Virus record (IMG/VR): IMGVR_UViG_3300036832_001306
Span: 1-30,546 of that record
Direction: 5' to 3' (one strand)
DNA: 30,546 nt
Source: a virus
Shown piece after piece: positions 2,457-22,245 of this stretch. How positions within the stretch are numbered: position 1 is the stretch's first letter; the number at the start of each line of letters is the position of its first letter. The notes beneath the pieces are model-generated. The model saw nothing but the letters and a program-made list of their open reading frames with translations. It ran no database searches and was not told where the DNA came from. The translations under genes and the position numbers were made by a program.

Positions 2457-2490
2457 CAATTTCTTTGTCCGCGTTGAAAGGCACACCCAA

Positions 2491-3063
2491 ATGTCATCCC
2501 TGAACCGCGTTTGTCTGATTGGCAATCTAGGTGCTGATCCCGAGGTGAGGCACACACAATCCGGTGGCATGATTGTCAATATGCGCATAGCGACCAGCGA
2601 GAAGTGGAACGATAAGCAGAGTGGTGAGAAGCGCGAGAGGACCGAGTGGCATACGATCGCCATCTTCAGTGAAGGCTTGGGCAAGGTGGCCGAGCGCTAC
2701 TTGCGCAAAGGGTCCAAGGTCTATGTCGAGGGAAAATTGGCCACCGAGAAGTGGCAGGATAAAAACGGCAACGATCGTTACACCACCAAGGTCGTGATGG
2801 ACGCCTACCACGGCAAGCTGGTGATGCTCGGCGAGGGCAAGGGCGGCGGCCGTGAGGGTGACTATGGTCACGACGACGAGCGGCCGGCGAAGCAGGTCGA
2901 TCGCGGTGGTAACGGCGCCAGCACCAATGGCAGCGGCAATGGCTACGGCGATCACCGCGGCAGCGGTGGTGGTGAAAGGCGGTCGTTGGCCGATGAACTC
3001 GATGATTCCATACCTTTTGCTTACCCATTGGAATTCCAGCGTGTGAGAATCCAAGATGCCTAA
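2491..3063 (+). CDS. ssb: Single-stranded DNA-binding protein
   Basis: A 190-residue SSB. Residues 1-110 form the OB fold, recognised from LNRVCLIGNLGADPEVR at the N-terminus, TEWHTIAIF and the VYVEGKLATEKWQDKNG strand pair. A Gly/Asn-rich flexible linker follows (about 115-165). The acidic tip expected at the very C-terminus of SSB, here DDSIPF, is present but followed by 14 further residues, so it is not terminal. The protein coats single-stranded DNA in the phage replication fork and normally recruits partners through that tip. The ATG at 2491 follows a GAAAGG site and gives the standard N-terminus. The last bases overlap the next gene by 8. Confidence 0.95.
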   Translation: MSSLNRVCLIGNLGADPEVRHTQSGGMIVNMRIATSEKWNDKQSGEKRERTEWHTIAIFSEGLGKVAERYLRKGSKVYVEGKLATEKWQDKNGNDRYTTKVVMDAYHGKLVMLGEGKGGGREGDYGHDDERPAKQVDRGGNGASTNGSGNGYGDHRGSGGGERRSLADELDDSIPFAYPLEFQRVRIQDA

Positions 3064-3241
3064 ATACCAGGAACGCATTGTGACGTCGTCGCTCGATCCC
3101 GCCAAGGTCGAAGAGTGGCTCACCAAGTGGCGCATTACCGAGCGCATGAACATGGCCAAGCGCGCCAAGCAGATCGATGACGGGTTGCGTCATCTGACGC
3201 CGTCGATGGAAGAGGACATGCTTGCGAAAGGCGATCTATGA
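3056..3241 (+). CDS. Hypothetical small protein
   Basis: A 61-residue protein starting inside the last codons of SSB and ending in an ATGA overlap with the next gene. It is charged and predicted helical (EEWLTKWRITERMNMAKRAK). No family was recognised. Overlap on both sides argues that it is a translated operon member. The start fixes the SSB C-terminal extension: those SSB codons also hold the initiation region of this gene. Confidence 0.65.
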   Translation: MPKYQERIVTSSLDPAKVEEWLTKWRITERMNMAKRAKQIDDGLRHLTPSMEEDMLAKGDL

Positions 3242-3450
3242 GCGACGACGTGCGTGCTGGCCAGGTTTGGCGTCGAAGCAAGGATGGCAAGGAGTTCTTC
3301 GTGGTCGGCGTGTTCGAATTGGTCGGCGATGTCGGTGGTGTGAAGAGCGGCACCATGATGGTCGGGTTTCGTGTGCACATGTCGTCCAAGAAGTTCTGGG
3401 TCTCGACGCTGGAATCCTTCAGCGCTGTAATGACGGAAAGGGTGAAGTGA
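3238..3450 (+). CDS. Hypothetical small beta-rich protein
   Basis: A 70-residue protein with an ATGA-coupled start. The N-terminal segment VRAGQVWRRSKDGKEFFVVG resembles the beta-barrel start seen in small phage proteins that begin with a 'GqvWr...' motif, followed by more alternating hydrophobic residues, suggesting an SH3-like or OB-like barrel. Function unknown. It shares one base with the following gene (TGATG). Confidence 0.65.
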   Translation: MSDDVRAGQVWRRSKDGKEFFVVGVFELVGDVGGVKSGTMMVGFRVHMSSKKFWVSTLESFSAVMTERVK

Positions 3451-3998
3451 TGGCGCGGCTGCTTGCATCATCGGTGGCTGGTCAGATCATTGATCCTGAT
3501 TGGTCACCGCTTGATACCGCCGAGGCGCCCGAATACGTGCCGGTCGCGTGGCATGGCTGGCACGTCGGCGTGCGGCTGGTCGAAGCGTTTCGCATCTTGG
3601 CGCGCATGCCGCAGCAAGCGCCGAGCGGCCACAAAACGATCTGGCCGCTGTACCAGTACGATGTCCGGGAATACTACGCGGCGCTGGTCGGCGCCTCGGG
3701 TGAGATCGCCGAAGATTTACAGGCGGGCCGCAATCGCGTGCGGCTGCAGGCTGGCGCGGCCGACATACAGCGCATGGAAACCGCGCTCGCGTGGCCCGCG
3801 CACTTTCTCGGTATGGACCGCTTATTGTGCGTCGTCGTCAACGAGGTTGCGTTTTTCCGTGCGCGCGGGCTTGATCTCGACCGAATCGCCCGTAAAACGA
3901 AGCCGCGGTGCTCGACCAATCTGTTACGGCACCGCAATCAGCATGGGCTAGACTTGATCGCCGAGGGGCTTCGGCGAGAGCAGGTGCCGGTGTTCTGA
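3450..3998 (+). CDS. DUF6362-like phage protein with probable HTH
   Basis: A 182-residue protein whose ATG shares one base with the previous stop. Features resembling DUF6362 phage proteins can be seen: VRLVEAFRILARMPQ near residues 40-55, then KTIWPLYQYDVREYYAAL, a DIQRMETALAWPAHFLGMD segment, and a C-terminal helical region ending in a likely helix-turn-helix (DLDRIARKTKPRCSTNLLRH). In that family the C-terminal part looks like a DNA-binding HTH, and a packaging or regulatory role has been proposed on context. The family match is from memory and only moderately sure. Confidence 0.65.
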   Translation: MARLLASSVAGQIIDPDWSPLDTAEAPEYVPVAWHGWHVGVRLVEAFRILARMPQQAPSGHKTIWPLYQYDVREYYAALVGASGEIAEDLQAGRNRVRLQAGAADIQRMETALAWPAHFLGMDRLLCVVVNEVAFFRARGLDLDRIARKTKPRCSTNLLRHRNQHGLDLIAEGLRREQVPVF

Positions 3999-4033
3999 AA
4001 CAACAAACATGCGTGTAGCACGCGGGGCAGTTG

Positions 4034-4285
4034 ATGTCGGCGAGGGGGCTGTCACCGAAGGCGTGGAATGGCAATAAGGCAGACTTCAATCTGAAGTATA
4101 AGCAGCGGCGGAAGGCGGCCGCTGCCGCCGGTCGGCCATTTCCTAATTACAAAACGGCATGCAATCAGTTGGACCTTGCGGTGCGGATCGCCAATGAACA
4201 AGGCGAGGTCACGGGCATTAACGAATTCTGGGACTTTGTTTTCAGGCCGCCTGAAAAGGTTCCAAAGAAGGTGAAAAATGGTTGA
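4034..4285 (+). CDS. Hypothetical small protein
   Basis: An 83-residue protein. ATG at 4034 is preceded by CGGGGC at about eight bases; a TTG one codon upstream is also possible. It is basic in the first half (KYKQRRKAAAAAGR) and ends in a Lys-rich tail. No domain recognised. It is separated from the previous gene by 35 bases, which contain no clear promoter or terminator, so it probably belongs to the same transcript. Confidence 0.55.
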   Translation: MSARGLSPKAWNGNKADFNLKYKQRRKAAAAAGRPFPNYKTACNQLDLAVRIANEQGEVTGINEFWDFVFRPPEKVPKKVKNG

Positions 4286-4288
4286 CGG

Positions 4289-4681
4289 ATGAATTTGCCT
4301 GTGGTTTCGTGCGCGCACGTGCCCGCGCCGGGGCGTATCTTGCCCAGCGCACACCTTCCTGACAATCCTGACACGTTGCGCCGCATTTATTGCGTGGTGC
4401 CTGGCTGCGGGTGTACCCGCGAGGCGCCAGCCGGACTGGACGTTTCCGAGTACATCTGCCGCGGGCATTGGCGGCTGATCCCACGGCGGCGGCGGCGCGC
4501 TTGGGGGAGGCTCGTAGGGCATTGGCGGCGGTTTGGGCCTGTCAGGGTGCCCGAGGACGGCAAAAACGCGCCAGCGGGCTTCCGGCGGGCGTGGCAGGCT
4601 ATCCGGCGGGCCGCGATTGAGGCGGCAGCGGCGGATGTTTCCACTCGCCAAACCGGCGCACCAGCCGCCGCACAACCTTGA
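4289..4681 (+). CDS. Putative zinc-binding phage protein
   Basis: A 130-residue Arg-rich protein. A metal site of the form C-x4-C-x-C (CVVPGCGC, about residues 35-42) followed by CRGHW is visible; many phages carry small proteins with a C...C...C-x2-HW site next to replication genes, of unknown function. The C-terminal 27 codons overlap the end of the convergent minus-strand gene at 4599 by 83 bases, an unusually long tail-to-tail overlap, so one of the two ends could be misread. The cysteine pattern makes the N-terminal two-thirds credible. Confidence 0.6.
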   Translation: MNLPVVSCAHVPAPGRILPSAHLPDNPDTLRRIYCVVPGCGCTREAPAGLDVSEYICRGHWRLIPRRRRRAWGRLVGHWRRFGPVRVPEDGKNAPAGFRRAWQAIRRAAIEAAAADVSTRQTGAPAAAQP

Positions 4682-5297
4682 TGCGGCGGTTGCGGTGGGT
4701 GGCGTCGGGGCCCGTCCGCCAGCCGGTGTTATCCGGCACGTCGTACCAGACCTGGCCGAAGATGTAGTTGTAGCCGGGGTTGTCTTCGTCCTCGTGCATC
4801 AGGAATGTGGCGGCCAAGTTTTGCAGGCCTTGTCGTTCCCCGAGTTCTGGTGGAATGGTGACCGGCGCCTCGGGGTCAACCTTCACTGCAATCATCGGCG
4901 AGAGGTTGCCGCGCCAGGCGGGTCGGTCGACGCACTGGTAGAGTGTCGTGTCGATCAGCCAGTCCTGGGCGATGACCACCATGTGCCCCGACCAGAGTCC
5001 TGGCGGTGCCGGTCTTGGATCGAGCGGCTTGCCGATCCCGAGCGAGTGCAGCGGGGTGTCGCCTTCCAAGGCGCGGATCGCTGTCGCCACTGGGCGCACA
5101 TGCGCCTCGATGCCGATGGCTTCGAGAAAGTCGCGGACCGCCAGCGAGGCGAGGACGCATGATCGCTTGCTGATGCCGTGGACGAGCCGCACGTTGCGGT
5201 CGAATTCGGGGTGCAGGTGCTCGCTGATCACCGCGAGCGCCTTCAGGAGTTTTAGCGGTGGGATGCCACTGTATATCTGGAGATCGCCGAGGATCAT
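4599..5297 (-). CDS. Putative Cys-His-Asp protein (transglutaminase/NlpC-like fold)
   Basis: A 232-residue protein, last gene of the leftward operon. The start at 5297 is preferred because it forms an ATGA overlap with the gene upstream; a GTG at 5306 would add three residues. A helical segment with Cys47 (SKRSCVLASLAVRDFL), then His105 (SGHMVVIA) and Asp116 (DWLIDTTL) in that order and context resembles the catalytic triad of the transglutaminase/NlpC-type cysteine-peptidase fold. This is an inference from spacing; no named family was recognised. It could be a peptidase or a non-catalytic relative. The Arg-rich C-terminus overlaps the plus-strand gene 4289-4681. Confidence 0.65.
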   Translation of the reverse strand: MILGDLQIYSGIPPLKLLKALAVISEHLHPEFDRNVRLVHGISKRSCVLASLAVRDFLEAIGIEAHVRPVATAIRALEGDTPLHSLGIGKPLDPRPAPPGLWSGHMVVIAQDWLIDTTLYQCVDRPAWRGNLSPMIAVKVDPEAPVTIPPELGERQGLQNLAATFLMHEDEDNPGYNYIFGQVWYDVPDNTGWRTGPDATHRNRRIKVVRRLVRRFGEWKHPPLPPQSRPAG

Positions 5298-5497
5298 GCC
5301 CACCACCGTTTGAGGCAGTCGTCACAGAATCGGGCAGAGCCGCCGTCCTCTCGCCACAGGATCAGAGGCACGCAATTCCGGTCGATTCCGGCGCTGCAAT
5401 AGGCGCACAGCACGCTGGGCGGGGACTCGGGTGTACCCCATGTGACGTGATCCCAGTCGAAGCCTGGGCGTGGTTGCAGCGTGCCTTTTGTTTTCAT
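5294..5497 (-). CDS. Small four-cysteine zinc-ribbon protein
   Basis: A 67-residue protein with CAYC near the middle and FCDDC near the C-terminus, the typical spacing of a treble-clef or zinc ribbon. Tryptophans cluster at both ends. No enzymatic domain is present, so a nucleic-acid or protein-binding adaptor is likely. It is coupled to the downstream gene by an ATGA overlap and lies six bases downstream of the gene before it, within the leftward operon. Confidence 0.7.
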   Translation of the reverse strand: MKTKGTLQPRPGFDWDHVTWGTPESPPSVLCAYCSAGIDRNCVPLILWREDGGSARFCDDCLKRWWA

Positions 5498-5503
5498 GGT
5501 GCC

Positions 5504-5716
5504 TCACAACTTATCGATCGTTGATTGCAGATCGGTGTGGATGTCGGCCAGCATTGTACCGGCACGGTCGAGTGCGCCACGCACGTTGGTGATCAGTTCG
5601 CGTATCGTGGCGTCGCGGCCATGGTCCTGCAAATCGCCGAGCAGGCTGTCGAGCACGGAGATTGCGGCATAGGCCTCGGCGAGTACGAAGGCCAAGCGGT
5701 CGGTGCATTTGGTCAT
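5504..5716 (-). CDS. Hypothetical small helical protein
   Basis: A 70-residue, almost entirely helical protein (LAFVLAEAYAAISVLDSLLGD and later heptad-like segments), perhaps a coiled-coil. ATG at 5716 has GGGAG about seven bases upstream; an in-frame ATG at 5722 overlaps the preceding stop (ATGA) and would add two residues. No known family. Confidence 0.65.
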   Translation of the reverse strand: MTKCTDRLAFVLAEAYAAISVLDSLLGDLQDHGRDATIRELITNVRGALDRAGTMLADIHTDLQSTIDKL

Positions 5717-5718
5717 GG

Positions 5719-6081
5719 TCATCTCCCGTTGTGCCATTCGAACGGTGGTGGGAATCCGGTTTGGCCGATGCATGGCCACTTGGCCTTGAGCGCGAGCACG
5801 ATCATTCGGACCGGCGTCTCGTTGCGGGCGATGCGCAGCGCGTAGTCGATGGCGAAGTCGGCGATCTCGGGTGGCTGCACCTGGGGCGGGATGCAGAATT
5901 GCTGGGCCGCGATGTAGGCGTCGACGACGCCAGCGATGAATGCGACGCAGGCGATGTGCCGCTCGCGGTTCTTTGCCGTGCAGTTGTTCAAGAATTCAGG
6001 GCCCGCGATGTAGTTTCGGATCGGCTGGGCGGCCGCGGGTGTGATGGCGAGCGCTGCTGCCAGGATGAGGGTGCGGATCAT
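5719..6081 (-). CDS. Rap1a/Tai-like secreted protein
   Basis: A 120-residue protein with a clear signal peptide (MIRTLILAAALAITPAAAQ), so it is exported to the periplasm. The mature part follows the layout of the Rap1a/Tai immunity family: an early Cys (NNCTAKN), then IACVAFIAGVVDAYIA, QQFCIPP, a helical stretch ending ALKAKWPC. The Cys positions and the C..(F/Y)..G..D core match that family. Members include immunity proteins of type VI secreted amidases, but many Rap1a-like proteins in phages and proteobacteria have unknown roles. Start and stop overlap both neighbours by ATGA. Confidence 0.7.
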   Translation of the reverse strand: MIRTLILAAALAITPAAAQPIRNYIAGPEFLNNCTAKNRERHIACVAFIAGVVDAYIAAQQFCIPPQVQPPEIADFAIDYALRIARNETPVRMIVLALKAKWPCIGQTGFPPPFEWHNGR

Positions 6082-18241: not shown

Positions 18242-19765
18242 GTGGTTGACATGAATAATATTCTCAAATTTCCGCGCGCTTTCTTTAGCGGGATGACGAC
18301 AGATTCTTTTAGAAATTTTCTCGCTGGTTTTGGTATGCCTGGCCGCGATAAGGCGACCGGTCAACAATGGTGGTTATGTCCGTTGGACAACGGGCAGTTG
18401 GAGGCCGCATACCGCGGCGATTGGGCGGCGCGCAAGATCATCGAAATTCCAGCGTTCGATATGACGAGAAGTTGGCGCCAGTGGCAGGCGAGCAAGGAGC
18501 AGGTCACCGCGATCGAAGACACCGAACGATCTTTTAATATTCAAGGAAAAATGATGGACGCACTAATCAAGGCGCGCCTCTATGGTGGCGCCGCGATGAT
18601 CATGGGCGTCGATTGCGGATCGTTCCAGGACGAGCTGGACCTCGATGCGATTAAGAAGGGCGATTTGAAATTTGTGCATGTCGTTAGCAAGAACTTCCTC
18701 GCTGCTGGCCCGATGGTGCGCGAGATCACGTCGCCGTGGTATTCAGAACCGACGTGGTTTATGCGGGCAAATACCGTCACCACTGATCCGCCCGATCCGC
18801 GCATCGCCAATGTCGGCCTGCCGACGATGGGCCAGGCGCCCGGCGATGCGATCTATATTCACCCAAGTCGTGTGATCCGGTTGGTCGGCGCCGCCTATCC
18901 CGACATCGAGAATGCGCAGGACGCGTGGGGCGATAGCGTGCTGCAGGTGGTGCAGGACGCGCTCAAGTCGGCTGGCATGGCGTCGTCTTCGGTTTCGTCG
19001 ATGATCGCCGAGGCCAAGCTCGACATTTTCAAGGTGCCGAACCTCACCGCCAAGATGATGACGGCGGAAGGCACGCAGGAGCTGTTCAATCGCTTCAGCC
19101 AGGGCAACATCGGCAAGTCGACGATCAACGCGCTGCTGGTCGATCTCGCCGAGGAGTTCGAGCGCATCACGCCGCAGCTTTCCAATTATGATAAAGTGAT
19201 TGGTATTTATTATATGCTGGCATGCGCTGCTGCGGATATCCCGGCGACGCGTTTTATGGGCAAGTCGCCCGATGGCATGAATGCGACCGGCGAGAGCGAC
19301 ATAAGGAATTACTACGATAGATTATCGTCCGATCAAAAGGTGAAATACACGCCGCTACTGACGCGGCTCGACGAGGTGTTGATCCGCACGACGTTCGGCT
19401 CGCGCGACAAGTCGATCCGCTACGATTGGAATCCGCTATGGCAATTGTCGGCGATCGAGAAGGCCGACATGAATCTGAAGGTGGCGCAGGCGCATCAGAT
19501 CGATGTCAACGCGGGAATCATTTCTCCCCACGTATTGCAGACCGGGCGGCAGAATTTCTTGATGGAGGATGGCTTCCTCTATCCCGGACTGGAGCAGGCG
19601 ATCGACGCGGAGGACGATTGGGACCCTGAAGAGAGTCTGCAGCCTGATGTGCCCAACGGCGTGATCGATCCCAACAATCCCAATGCGGTGACAGGGGCGA
19701 AGCCTCAGCAACAGTTGCCGCCGCCGCAGCAAAAACCACCACCGAAAGATGACGGCGGAAATTGA
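18242..19765 (+). CDS. Portal protein, DUF1073-like
   Basis: A 507-residue protein of normal portal length. It resembles the DUF1073 portal group: NGQLEAAYRGDWAARKIIEI early, ARLYGGAAMIMGVD, IHPSRVIRLVG, then the conserved middle KVIGIYYMLACAAADIPATR followed by FMGKSPDGMNATGESDIRNY. The C-terminus is Pro/Gln-rich. Twelve copies would form the ring at one capsid vertex for DNA passage. The GTG at 18242 is supported by AAGGAGG about seven bases upstream; ATG 18251 would be too far. It shares one base with the head morphogenesis start (TGATG). Confidence 0.9.
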   Translation: MVDMNNILKFPRAFFSGMTTDSFRNFLAGFGMPGRDKATGQQWWLCPLDNGQLEAAYRGDWAARKIIEIPAFDMTRSWRQWQASKEQVTAIEDTERSFNIQGKMMDALIKARLYGGAAMIMGVDCGSFQDELDLDAIKKGDLKFVHVVSKNFLAAGPMVREITSPWYSEPTWFMRANTVTTDPPDPRIANVGLPTMGQAPGDAIYIHPSRVIRLVGAAYPDIENAQDAWGDSVLQVVQDALKSAGMASSSVSSMIAEAKLDIFKVPNLTAKMMTAEGTQELFNRFSQGNIGKSTINALLVDLAEEFERITPQLSNYDKVIGIYYMLACAAADIPATRFMGKSPDGMNATGESDIRNYYDRLSSDQKVKYTPLLTRLDEVLIRTTFGSRDKSIRYDWNPLWQLSAIEKADMNLKVAQAHQIDVNAGIISPHVLQTGRQNFLMEDGFLYPGLEQAIDAEDDWDPEESLQPDVPNGVIDPNNPNAVTGAKPQQQLPPPQQKPPPKDDGGN

Positions 19766-22245
19766 TGCGCGTGACTCGCGCCGCCGTTAGCAGCTCGGCC
19801 TCCTGCTCATGGGATGCCGGGGTTTCCTCCCTGACTGGGGCGGCAGACGCGTCGCCCCGTTTTTTTGGAGATGACGGAAAGCGGCGCAGCGATCCGACTG
19901 GCACCGGTCCGATCCGCCGCGCCTTCCGGGCCGAAGCGGCGATGCGGCTGCGTCGGTTTAATGCCGAGGTCAGAAAGCTTGTGATCGACCACGACGTTCT
20001 GGCGTTGGGCCAGAATAGCGTGCTCGGGTTTCATCCCGCCCAAGTTCGGCTAGACGCATTCGGCCATTCGGTACACGCCGCTATGATGGGCGTTGCGGGT
20101 GGAGATTGGACGCGCGTTTTTCTTCAGCGAGCTTGGCGGGATGGCGTGGCGGCGGCGGTTTCCGAGACGGGGGCCGCCGCCGCTGGCGCCGGTGGCGATG
20201 ACGAATTCGAGGGCCTCATGGCCCTGACGCGGCGTGAGCTGGATGGTATTTGCGCTGCCATCGAGCAGCGGCTGGCGCGCGTTGCCGACGTGATTATCGC
20301 CGCCAGCGCGCACCAGCAGATTACACCGGTGCGAGCGTTCCGGCGCATCCAGGTAGAGCTTACCAAGGTGGCAGGCCAGCGTCTGCCGCTCCTGGCCGAT
20401 ACGGCGCCGGTGCTGGCATGCACCCGCGCCATACTCAACGTCTACCGCCAGACCGGCATCGAAGCGGTGGGCGTCGAGCCCGAGGCTGGCGCAGGAAGCC
20501 GTCTGACATCAGATGCTGCGCCACCTCGGCGCGATCCGCCGACGCCGATGGAGCGCTACGGGGAGCTGCGCGAGAAGGCGGTGCCCAAGGCGTATGCCAA
20601 GGCGAAGTTCGTTGGGGTGCGGACTGCGGGCGACGAGAAGGTGTGCTTTCCGACTTGGACAATGGTACGAACGTCAATGGGTGACAGGCCGATTCAAGAC
20701 ATCAGGATTGGCGACTACGTTCTTACGCGAGCTGGTATCAAAAAGGTTGTCAAGATTCACCAGCATCACTGGTTTGGTGATCTTGTTAGAATTGACACGA
20801 TGCCCTTTACCAAAATTGATGAGCGGATCACCGTACCGGTGCCATTTTTTCCAATGCGGACCGCAGAGTCCTCTAGAGCGATGGGGGCGGTTGCAGCGGT
20901 CGACGGAGCATGTGGGCCGTTGTCGTCGATGTCTGATCGGGATGCCGTGACGCCAAAAGTTCGAGTAATGTCCCGTGCAAAAGCCTTTTGTCTTTGCCAT
21001 TTTTTCGCAGAATTCCACCGAACATTTGTGTTTGGGCAGAGTTGGATGGTGGGGCATCTCGAATGCACGCCGAACCATCCCATCTGGTGCGTTGGTCTGG
21101 GGTTCGTCCGTGCAGATGCTCTCAAGATCGGTGACTGCCTGCAGACGGTCTCTAATAAGTTTGTCCAGGTCGTTCGCATTGGTAACGTCAAGCGTGTCGA
21201 GACGAAGCACCTTCCATCCCGCATCTTCAAACGCCTTGTCTCGTTTTGCGGACTGCGCCCCATTTCTGTGCCAATACGCTCCATCAACCTCCAAGGCGAT
21301 GTTGCCTATGGCAAAGTCAATGCACCATCGATCAAATTGAAATTCCTGGGTGAAGAGAATACGAAGACGTTCAAGCGATTTTCTGACCATGGCTTCGGGG
21401 CGTGTTTCCCCCCGGAATCGACGATAGCAAGCGCGCGAGCAGAAACGCGTATTGGAGGTTGGGATTTTGCGAAAGCGTTTGTTGCAGTTCTCACAGATGG
21501 CAAAGACTGGCGGTCGGCGGCATTGTTCCGAACAATAGGCATTGCGTGGCCATTTTCCGCGCTGCTTGTTTTGTCTAAACAACTTGTCGCATCGTTCACA
21601 TTTTATGTCGCGCCGCTTAACCGACTTCTGTTTGCACGCCCACGAACAGAAATTATAGCGGTCGGCGATCGCGCTGCTGATGGTGAACAGTTCTTTGCAG
21701 CCAACACAGGTCTTGGTGACCAAGTTGGCACGGCTAGCGTCGTAGCAAACTCGCGAACAGAATGCTCGGCCTGGGACCCAGTACCGACCGGCAGGAACGG
21801 TGGTGCTGCCGCAATGCTTGCATGGGCCGCGGGGCTTTTTCAGAAATCCTTTGACGGGCATGGTGGTGTGCTCGTTTACAATCTGACGGTAGAGGATGTG
21901 CCGGAATTTTATGCCAATGGCATCCTTGTACACAACTGCCAGATTTGCGAGGACCTCGCCGCTGATGCGCCCTACACGATTGCGGAATATATCGGTCTAT
22001 TTCCTCGGCATCCTCGCTGCCGCTGTAGACCGATTCCGTGGTTTGACAAGCGCTTCGCTCGCGATCGCGCGCCGCGGCTCACGCGCGATCATCACATGCA
22101 CGGCTTCAACAGGTGGTGGGCACCAGACGCTGGAGCAGGCGCCGACGATGAGCTAACTGCAGCCGTCGACGCTGGCGATCAAGCGGAAGGCGCATCGCCG
22201 CCGGAATTCGACGAGCCGCCGTTCAAGCAACTCAACGAGGAATGA
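19765..22245 (+). CDS. Head morphogenesis protein (Mu F/SPP1 gp7-like) with in-frame intein
   Basis: An 826-residue precursor; removal of the intein would leave 395 residues. The N-extein (1-293) is helical and ends ...RTAGDEKV; the C-extein resumes CQICEDLAADAPY and HPRCRCRPIPW. Joined, these give the conserved C-x2-C...H-x2-C-x-C region of the Mu F-like family, so the intein splits the most conserved Cys site. The protein is a minor head component acting early in capsid assembly. The intein starts at Cys294 and ends at Asn724, and the +1 residue is Cys. The ATG at 19765 shares a base with the portal stop; a TTG one codon upstream is also possible. Without splicing the protein would probably be non-functional. 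Confidence 0.9.
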   Translation: MRVTRAAVSSSASCSWDAGVSSLTGAADASPRFFGDDGKRRSDPTGTGPIRRAFRAEAAMRLRRFNAEVRKLVIDHDVLALGQNSVLGFHPAQVRLDAFGHSVHAAMMGVAGGDWTRVFLQRAWRDGVAAAVSETGAAAAGAGGDDEFEGLMALTRRELDGICAAIEQRLARVADVIIAASAHQQITPVRAFRRIQVELTKVAGQRLPLLADTAPVLACTRAILNVYRQTGIEAVGVEPEAGAGSRLTSDAAPPRRDPPTPMERYGELREKAVPKAYAKAKFVGVRTAGDEKVCFPTWTMVRTSMGDRPIQDIRIGDYVLTRAGIKKVVKIHQHHWFGDLVRIDTMPFTKIDERITVPVPFFPMRTAESSRAMGAVAAVDGACGPLSSMSDRDAVTPKVRVMSRAKAFCLCHFFAEFHRTFVFGQSWMVGHLECTPNHPIWCVGLGFVRADALKIGDCLQTVSNKFVQVVRIGNVKRVETKHLPSRIFKRLVSFCGLRPISVPIRSINLQGDVAYGKVNAPSIKLKFLGEENTKTFKRFSDHGFGACFPPESTIASARAETRIGGWDFAKAFVAVLTDGKDWRSAALFRTIGIAWPFSALLVLSKQLVASFTFYVAPLNRLLFARPRTEIIAVGDRAADGEQFFAANTGLGDQVGTASVVANSRTECSAWDPVPTGRNGGAAAMLAWAAGLFQKSFDGHGGVLVYNLTVEDVPEFYANGILVHNCQICEDLAADAPYTIAEYIGLFPRHPRCRCRPIPWFDKRFARDRAPRLTRDHHMHGFNRWWAPDAGAGADDELTAAVDAGDQAEGASPPEFDEPPFKQLNEE
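20674..21861 (-). CDS. Putative homing endonuclease, zinc fingers plus Vsr/DUF559-like nuclease, antisense to intein
   Basis: A 395-residue protein encoded wholly within the intein on the opposite strand. Domains in order: four treble-clef fingers CxxC...FC-x3-C (CKHC/CSRVC, CVGC/CSWAC, CERC/CSEQC, CENC/CSRAC, residues about 14-150); a PD-(D/E)XK/Vsr-like core with FQFDRWCIDFAIGNIALEVD, GAYWHRNG and KRDKAFEDAGWKVLRLD (about 165-250), resembling DUF559 and the EDxHD homing nucleases; and two fingers CSVEFC...CTGH and CSVDRC...CGPH with the YGDP ending (about 285-350). The last 40 residues are antisense to splicing block A. ATG 21861 is the first ATG; a GTG at 21933 would add 24 residues. Such an enzyme would cut intein-free alleles. 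Antisense codons coincide exactly with sense codon triplets. Confidence 0.85.
   Translation of the reverse strand: MPVKGFLKKPRGPCKHCGSTTVPAGRYWVPGRAFCSRVCYDASRANLVTKTCVGCKELFTISSAIADRYNFCSWACKQKSVKRRDIKCERCDKLFRQNKQRGKWPRNAYCSEQCRRPPVFAICENCNKRFRKIPTSNTRFCSRACYRRFRGETRPEAMVRKSLERLRILFTQEFQFDRWCIDFAIGNIALEVDGAYWHRNGAQSAKRDKAFEDAGWKVLRLDTLDVTNANDLDKLIRDRLQAVTDLESICTDEPQTNAPDGMVRRAFEMPHHPTLPKHKCSVEFCEKMAKTKGFCTGHYSNFWRHGIPIRHRRQRPTCSVDRCNRPHRSRGLCGPHWKKWHRYGDPLINFGKGHRVNSNKITKPVMLVNLDNLFDTSSRKNVVANPDVLNRPVTH
21906..21935 (-). promoter_or_regulatory. Weak promoter candidate for antisense endonuclease
   Basis: On the minus strand TTGTGT (21935-21930) and TAAAAT (21911-21906) are spaced by 18 bases; the -10 matches five of six bases, the -35 three of six. 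Transcription would start near 21899, about 38 bases before the endonuclease ATG. The bases also encode intein block G on the plus strand. Only a pattern match. Confidence 0.3.

Follow-up and report, generated by a model that had tools for sequence, protein, structure and literature searches.

Where does an intein keep its homing endonuclease when the reading frame that holds its splicing blocks shows none? The question is raised by a viral contig of 30,546 bp (source record IMGVR_UViG_3300036832_001306; this whole stretch of DNA is called the window here), in which an intein interrupts a phage head gene. Our reading, to which we assign a probability of roughly 85%, is that this intein is mobile and that its homing endonuclease is encoded by a gene of its own, written on the other strand of the linker DNA.

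A contiguous intein within a phage head gene

Positions 19762-22245 (+) form one sense ORF of 827 aa that passes from head protein into intein and back into head protein. The host gene encodes a phage minor head or head morphogenesis protein, as judged from PHROG matches on the C-extein. Its N-extein (19762-20643, +) shares the ORF with intein and C-extein and is 89% identical in DNA sequence to L011, an intein-free allele of the host gene. The empty site of L011 reads GTG|TGC and the window reads GTG|TGC...AAC|TGC, with the C-extein (21937-22245, +) starting at Cys+1 (CQICEDL...). The intein itself is contiguous (431 residues, 20644-21936, +), open in frame throughout, and carries all Hint splicing blocks (A, B, F and G, with Cys1, TxxH, HN and Cys+1); Pfam Hint_2 matches its start at 5e-7 and TIGR01443, the intein C-terminus, matches at 9e-7, both over the cut-off.

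AlphaFold predicts three confident Hint segments (about residues 1-58, 137-186 and 409-431) with unfolded linkers between them. The first segment (20644-20817, +) holds Cys1 and block A within the Hint_2 match, with pLDDT of about 95-98 that falls at its end; the second (21052-21201, +) holds block B with TPNH and a PT-HINT match, with pLDDT of 95-98 through residue 180; and the third (21868-21936, +) holds VYNLTVED...VHN within the TIGR01443 match, with pLDDT of about 89-97. Linker 1 (20818-21051, +), between blocks A and B, and linker 2 (21202-21867, +), at the usual position of endonuclease insertion, are predicted to be disordered, with pLDDT below 50 at residues 61-134 and 203-383, respectively. 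The best structural match of the intein model is the gp41-1 intein (Foldseek 6riz/6qaz, E 3e-6, TMt 0.68), with further inteins matched as well, and the sense inteins also match intein structures in profile searches. The first-pass annotation of this DNA had described a sense strand with every splicing block and with linkers devoid of endonuclease motifs, and both statements stand: a profile search of the sense linkers returned no nuclease match.

An endonuclease gene on the opposite strand

The reverse strand of the same DNA holds an ORF at 20674-21933 (-), of 419 aa when counted from an upstream GTG at 21933, within which we place an EDxHD endonuclease gene of 395 codons that begins with the ATG at 21861 (20674-21861, -), on the basis of its DUF559 and I-Bth0305I profile matches, its register and its codons. 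Its TGA stop is read on the sense strand as the Ser codon TCA (20674-20676). The predicted product opens with a zinc-finger array (residues 12-150; 21412-21828, -) whose C..C/C..C units are conserved among 37 homologues (pLDDT mostly 86-97, with dips to 70-75), continues into an EDxHD nuclease core (residues 153-245; 21127-21405, -; pLDDT above 90 over most of it), and ends with a pair of C-terminal fingers (20821-21048, -) that match the HNH family phrog_1271 at 2e-26 and have no confident AlphaFold model.

Several comparisons place the core among EDxHD nucleases, and the earlier description of fingers joined to a Vsr/DUF559-like core is borne out. The ORF matches DUF559 at 3e-5, over the cut-off, and Vsr weakly, and a profile of the 37 homologous nucleases searched against structures finds 3r3p at 2e-15, 3hrl at 4e-9 and Vsr at 0.003. 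Structural comparison gives VIA-align Z scores of 12.1 to 3r3p and 9.8 to Vsr (1cw0); 3r3p, the catalytic domain of I-Bth0305I, deposited as a 'Mobile intron protein', is the best structural match of the nuclease. Across the 37 homologues, E156, E191, D193, W197 and H198 are invariant. Foldseek with the nuclease model also returned weak matches to mitoribosome proteins.

The C-terminal fingers lie opposite sense linker 1, a stretch that is missing in 26 of 26 aligned homologues. From this alignment, the Hint domain of the window carries a second insertion between blocks A and B, which on the antisense side adds two further putative fingers to the nuclease.

The arrangement recurs in related loci

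We searched IMG/VR with the nuclease and classified the resulting loci by profiles for the nuclease and for the two Hint ends. Contiguous inteins in this set contain 29 distinct antisense nucleases, all in register -0 and none in -1 or -2, together with 12 same-strand nucleases that all occupy one other frame and eight more that are in frame; the remaining frames are empty. All 29 antisense loci have an intact nuclease frame and both Hint halves in one ORF, and the overlap ranges across them from several hundred to about 1,200 bp. Of the 30 contiguous loci that we examined first, 27 gave complete splice junctions, and in nearly all examined loci the head gene is interrupted at one shared site (...D[DE].V|C...VHN|C..C); L089, which comes from the sequenced Gordonibacillus kamchatkensis genome, shows this layout in another host gene. 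Because the layout recurs in about 29 distinct loci, we regard it as a real arrangement. A protein search for nested antisense copies in cultured phages gave distant relatives alone, apparently outside inteins.

Split inteins also occur with this nuclease. It lies antisense between the two halves in two loci (L041 and L047), which substantiates the link to split-intein designs that the first-pass annotation had proposed, and three further loci are same-strand split inteins. In L041 and L047 the antisense nuclease spans the break of the split intein, an intermediate between the contiguous and the fractured designs, and in the same-strand split inteins L061, L115 and L116 the nuclease is seemingly fused in frame behind the N-intein half. 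The head protein of L002 (minus-strand ORF 2487-6026) harbors a second intein beside the antisense one, with an EDxHD-like nuclease in frame (EVDGAYWH).

Register and stop avoidance

The two frames of the window coincide exactly, as had been claimed: (21859-20644) mod 3 = 0, and each antisense codon is therefore the reverse complement of a sense codon. Among the 22 Leu and 20 Ser codons of the nuclease there is no TTA, CTA or TCA, again in agreement with the earlier description. An open sense frame would arise by chance with a probability of 7e-4 given the nuclease's own composition (1,500 synonymous recodings) and of 10^-1.8 given flanking codon usage. Taken over 21 antisense nucleases, the forbidden codons number 0 against 153.6 expected from each gene's own GC3, and 0 against 72.8 expected from flanking codon usage (19 loci), a zero that holds partly by definition because the loci were grouped by their open frame. 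Independent of that grouping are the location of both Hint ends within one ORF and the ordinary use of these codons in other layouts: in homologues that are not antisense, the same codons occur 32 times (34.7/19.8 expected) and 84 times (116/77 expected). In recoding simulations, the host frame alone was stop-free, in the antisense and the same-strand groups alike.

These counts bear on the possibility that chance or codon bias has left the sense frame open and that what we see is in truth a split intein or simply an inserted nuclease gene. Such an opening would come most easily in the -0 frame, where fewer stops are expected in the window than in any of the other four alternative frames, and the homologous loci L041 and L047 are truly split. 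However, the absence of stops where 73-154 were expected over 21 loci statistically excludes chance for the contiguous loci, 29 loci have both Hint halves, N and C, within a single ORF, and the Hint fold is predicted with confidence, such that we consider a fortuitously open frame scarcely credible.

Coordinates also show how the two products share the DNA. Across from the unfolded sense linkers, the antisense strand encodes the nuclease fingers and most of the core, with linker 2 facing the N-terminal fingers and most of the core, and Hint block B faces the interdomain linker of the nuclease. Folded parts are encoded on both strands over about 75 bp (21127-21201).

Selection on the two frames

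Estimates of selection rest on one pair, L096 and L101, the sole loci close enough for the purpose; near-identical loci within clusters have too few differences for dN/dS. The antisense nucleases of this pair are 89% identical, and the nuclease frame has a dN/dS of 0.17 over 272 codons, versus 1.01-1.05 for the same stretch read as sense linker. This difference indicates that the nuclease is selected within the overlap and that the intein side must merely stay open, and it contradicts constraint on the sense frame alone, the pattern that the first-pass annotation had named as counting against its proposal. The roughly 52 synonymous nuclease changes in this pair introduced no sense stop, a weak point, since chance alone yields that result 5% of the time.

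The surroundings of the two nucleases are almost identical (21 differences in 647 codons and 2 in 103 for the extein and Hint DNA), which implies that the nuclease segment was exchanged or diverged separately. With about 10% divergence in that segment, the pair looks like an exchange of the nuclease module alone.

Together, the comparisons of sequence and predicted fold support the view that a homologous endonuclease of the EDxHD type, kept by selection, is encoded antisense within a contiguous Hint intein.

Expression signals

Shine-Dalgarno motifs of at least five bases precede the antisense start in eight of the 29 loci (1.1 expected) and the same-strand start in six of 12 (1.8 expected). 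The antisense gene of the window has no clear Shine-Dalgarno at its start, and a scan of the region detected no sigma-70-like promoter. In L005, L058, L059 and L069, the motif for the same-strand nuclease falls within the Hint K/E-(x)-G-D codons (e.g., AAA GGA GAT), and the nested gene apparently uses a TTG start. In this same-strand group, a ribosome site inside a conserved Hint motif suggests that the intein itself may supply it.

The missing signals in the window could mean that the intein splices while the antisense gene merely rides along, silent or decaying: a once free-standing nuclease gene would have landed in a mini-intein and dropped out of use. Homing endonucleases commonly end in such silent decay. 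However, the catalytic residues and finger cysteines are kept in every layout, the low dN/dS of the L096/L101 nuclease frame speaks of constraint, and Shine-Dalgarno motifs are enriched at antisense starts whose nuclease frames are intact in all 29 loci. We thus hold disuse to be distinctly improbable.

Free-standing relatives and the origin of the nested gene

Eight relatives of the nuclease are free-standing, each arranged tail-to-tail with a convergent neighbor at an overlap of 0-26 bp. Where its motif is readable, the neighbor is an intein-free head gene, and where the distance is measurable, the uninvaded site lies about 90-270 bp from the stop of the nuclease. In the nuclease tree, free-standing and antisense copies interleave on well-supported branches (L024 with L036, L021 with L049, L048 with L042, and L018 in the clade of the window), from which it seems that nuclease genes switched between free-standing and nested states several times while keeping the antisense orientation, in a tree that does not fix the direction from free-standing to nested. 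At L013 (4172-4690), a 172-aa ORF just upstream of the relative's intein-free head gene looks like a free-standing HEG.

The existence of relatives without an intein indicates that the nuclease can act on its own, and the antisense nuclease might be active in another role than intein mobility. It could, for example, cleave competing phages at other sites, or its antisense RNA could regulate the head gene, whose mRNA any antisense transcript would be bound to encounter. However, the proximity of the free-standing copies to the uninvaded site is what homing on the head gene predicts, and nearly all nested copies share one insertion site. We consider such a separate role unlikely, and favor the reading of the nuclease as the homing endonuclease of its intein.

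The variety of layouts within one nuclease family (same-strand out of frame, in frame, split and free-standing) suggests how the antisense form may have arisen. The nested nuclease probably derives from a free-standing gene, tail-to-tail with the head gene beside it, that moved into the intein; such an origin would explain the fixed orientation of the nuclease.

Other phage inteins with out-of-frame endonucleases

A search with the intein C-terminus returned 80 loci, mostly further phage inteins, and showed that the phenomenon is wider than the first-pass annotation had held: same-strand out-of-frame endonucleases are common in phage inteins. Fifty-three loci contain a nested same-strand out-of-frame ORF, in +2 relative to the host frame in 47 and in +1 in six. 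The 51 contiguous same-strand loci tested have no stop in the host frame (343 expected), and the nested ORFs proved to be HNH_3 endonucleases in six of six tested.

About 50 such same-strand cases fall within L228-L297 (e.g., L229:2379-3020 and L245:2322-2960). Isolated phages are represented as well: the terL inteins of Tetrasphaera phage TJE1 (L298; HQ225832.1, 12991-17211) and Acinetobacter phage Highwayman (L300; OZ038341.1) contain an unannotated out-of-frame HNH, in loci annotated solely as terminase. In Vibrio phage 1.238.A (L299; MG592603.1), two annotated proteins hold the Hint parts of the terminase, an HNH-like match separates them, and the locus looks like a split intein.

We lean, by a small measure, towards a joint reading of these observations. 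Phage inteins would as a rule carry their endonuclease as a separate overlapping gene and not as a fused domain, in several coding solutions (same strand out of frame, antisense in register, or between split halves) reached by repeated exchange with free-standing endonucleases beside the target, and the antisense solution would exploit the fact that the folded domains of one strand lie mostly opposite the linkers of the other.

A model for the locus

We infer splicing, antisense expression, cleavage, homing and the direction of evolution, and combine them as follows. Translation of the sense mRNA would run through the entire intein, whose three Hint segments would fold together with the long linkers, meaningless in themselves, looped out, and the intein would excise itself from the head protein. 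A separate antisense transcript would yield the zinc-finger EDxHD nuclease, which would cut an intein-free head gene near the insertion site, with repair then copying the intein in. Within the overlap, selection would keep the sequence of the nuclease, and the sense side would need just the absence of stops.

Comparison with known systems

The literature search found no report of an antisense endonuclease inside an intein, in keeping with the claim that this form is new; a preprint on actinobacteriophage inteins with 'non-canonical architecture' lay outside that search. The antisense arrangement is real and recurring, and apparently undescribed. It would give inteins another way to own an endonuclease besides in-frame fusion and split halves, and its intermediate states (free-standing, split, same-strand overlap and antisense overlap) make the gain and loss of endonucleases in inteins directly testable. 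Because the overlap recurs with evidence from homology, fold and selection, it also adds a well-supported example to the contested subject of long antisense overlaps between protein genes. For annotation it serves as a warning, since a gene caller that disallows long overlaps retains one of the two genes, and to protein engineers it suggests the use of inteins in which unstructured linkers of at least 200 residues are tolerated.

I-Bth0305I is an EDxHD homing endonuclease of a phage group I intron, encoded within the intron on the sense strand. It provides the closest solved fold and sequence match to the nuclease core, but its DNA-binding part differs from that of the window nuclease. Dassa et al. 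2009 reportedly described fractured genes, in which split inteins have an EDxHD (Vsr-like) endonuclease gene between their halves. The nuclease family and its position between intein halves are shared with our loci, and L041 and L047 have split halves too. However, fractured genes are split, whereas the window and 28 others are contiguous precursors in which nuclease and intein linker overlap fully on two strands; the single ORF at 19762-22245 rules out a fractured-gene split intein for the window. PMC12350094 cites Dassa et al. 2009.

Intein endonucleases have been described as fused domains nested at one conserved site (PMC6801210, PMC3943268). Canonical large inteins of the PI-SceI type share with the window the Hint blocks, a conserved site in an essential gene, and linker 2 between blocks B and F. 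Their endonuclease is in the intein frame, whereas that of the window is a separate gene on the opposite strand, outside the Hint reading frame, and a canonical large intein is thereby ruled out. The ShiLan domain, an insertion in a phage methylase with an out-of-frame same-strand HNH and no splicing domain (PMC11855218), is likewise a phage insertion that stays open in the host frame and hides an endonuclease gene in another. The window differs in being a Hint intein with an antisense EDxHD nuclease, and the antisense gene together with the splicing domain rules out a ShiLan-type insertion. The same-strand form may be known in part, and a Gosselin 2025 preprint and Gorbalenya 1998 may describe it.

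The nearest parallel in orientation comes from nuclear group I introns, which also have an endonuclease gene opposite a self-splicing element and whose antisense homing endonuclease genes have been shown to be expressed and active (PMC9548176). There, a ribozyme in rDNA does the self-splicing and no second frame has to stay open, whereas in the window both strands are protein-coding.
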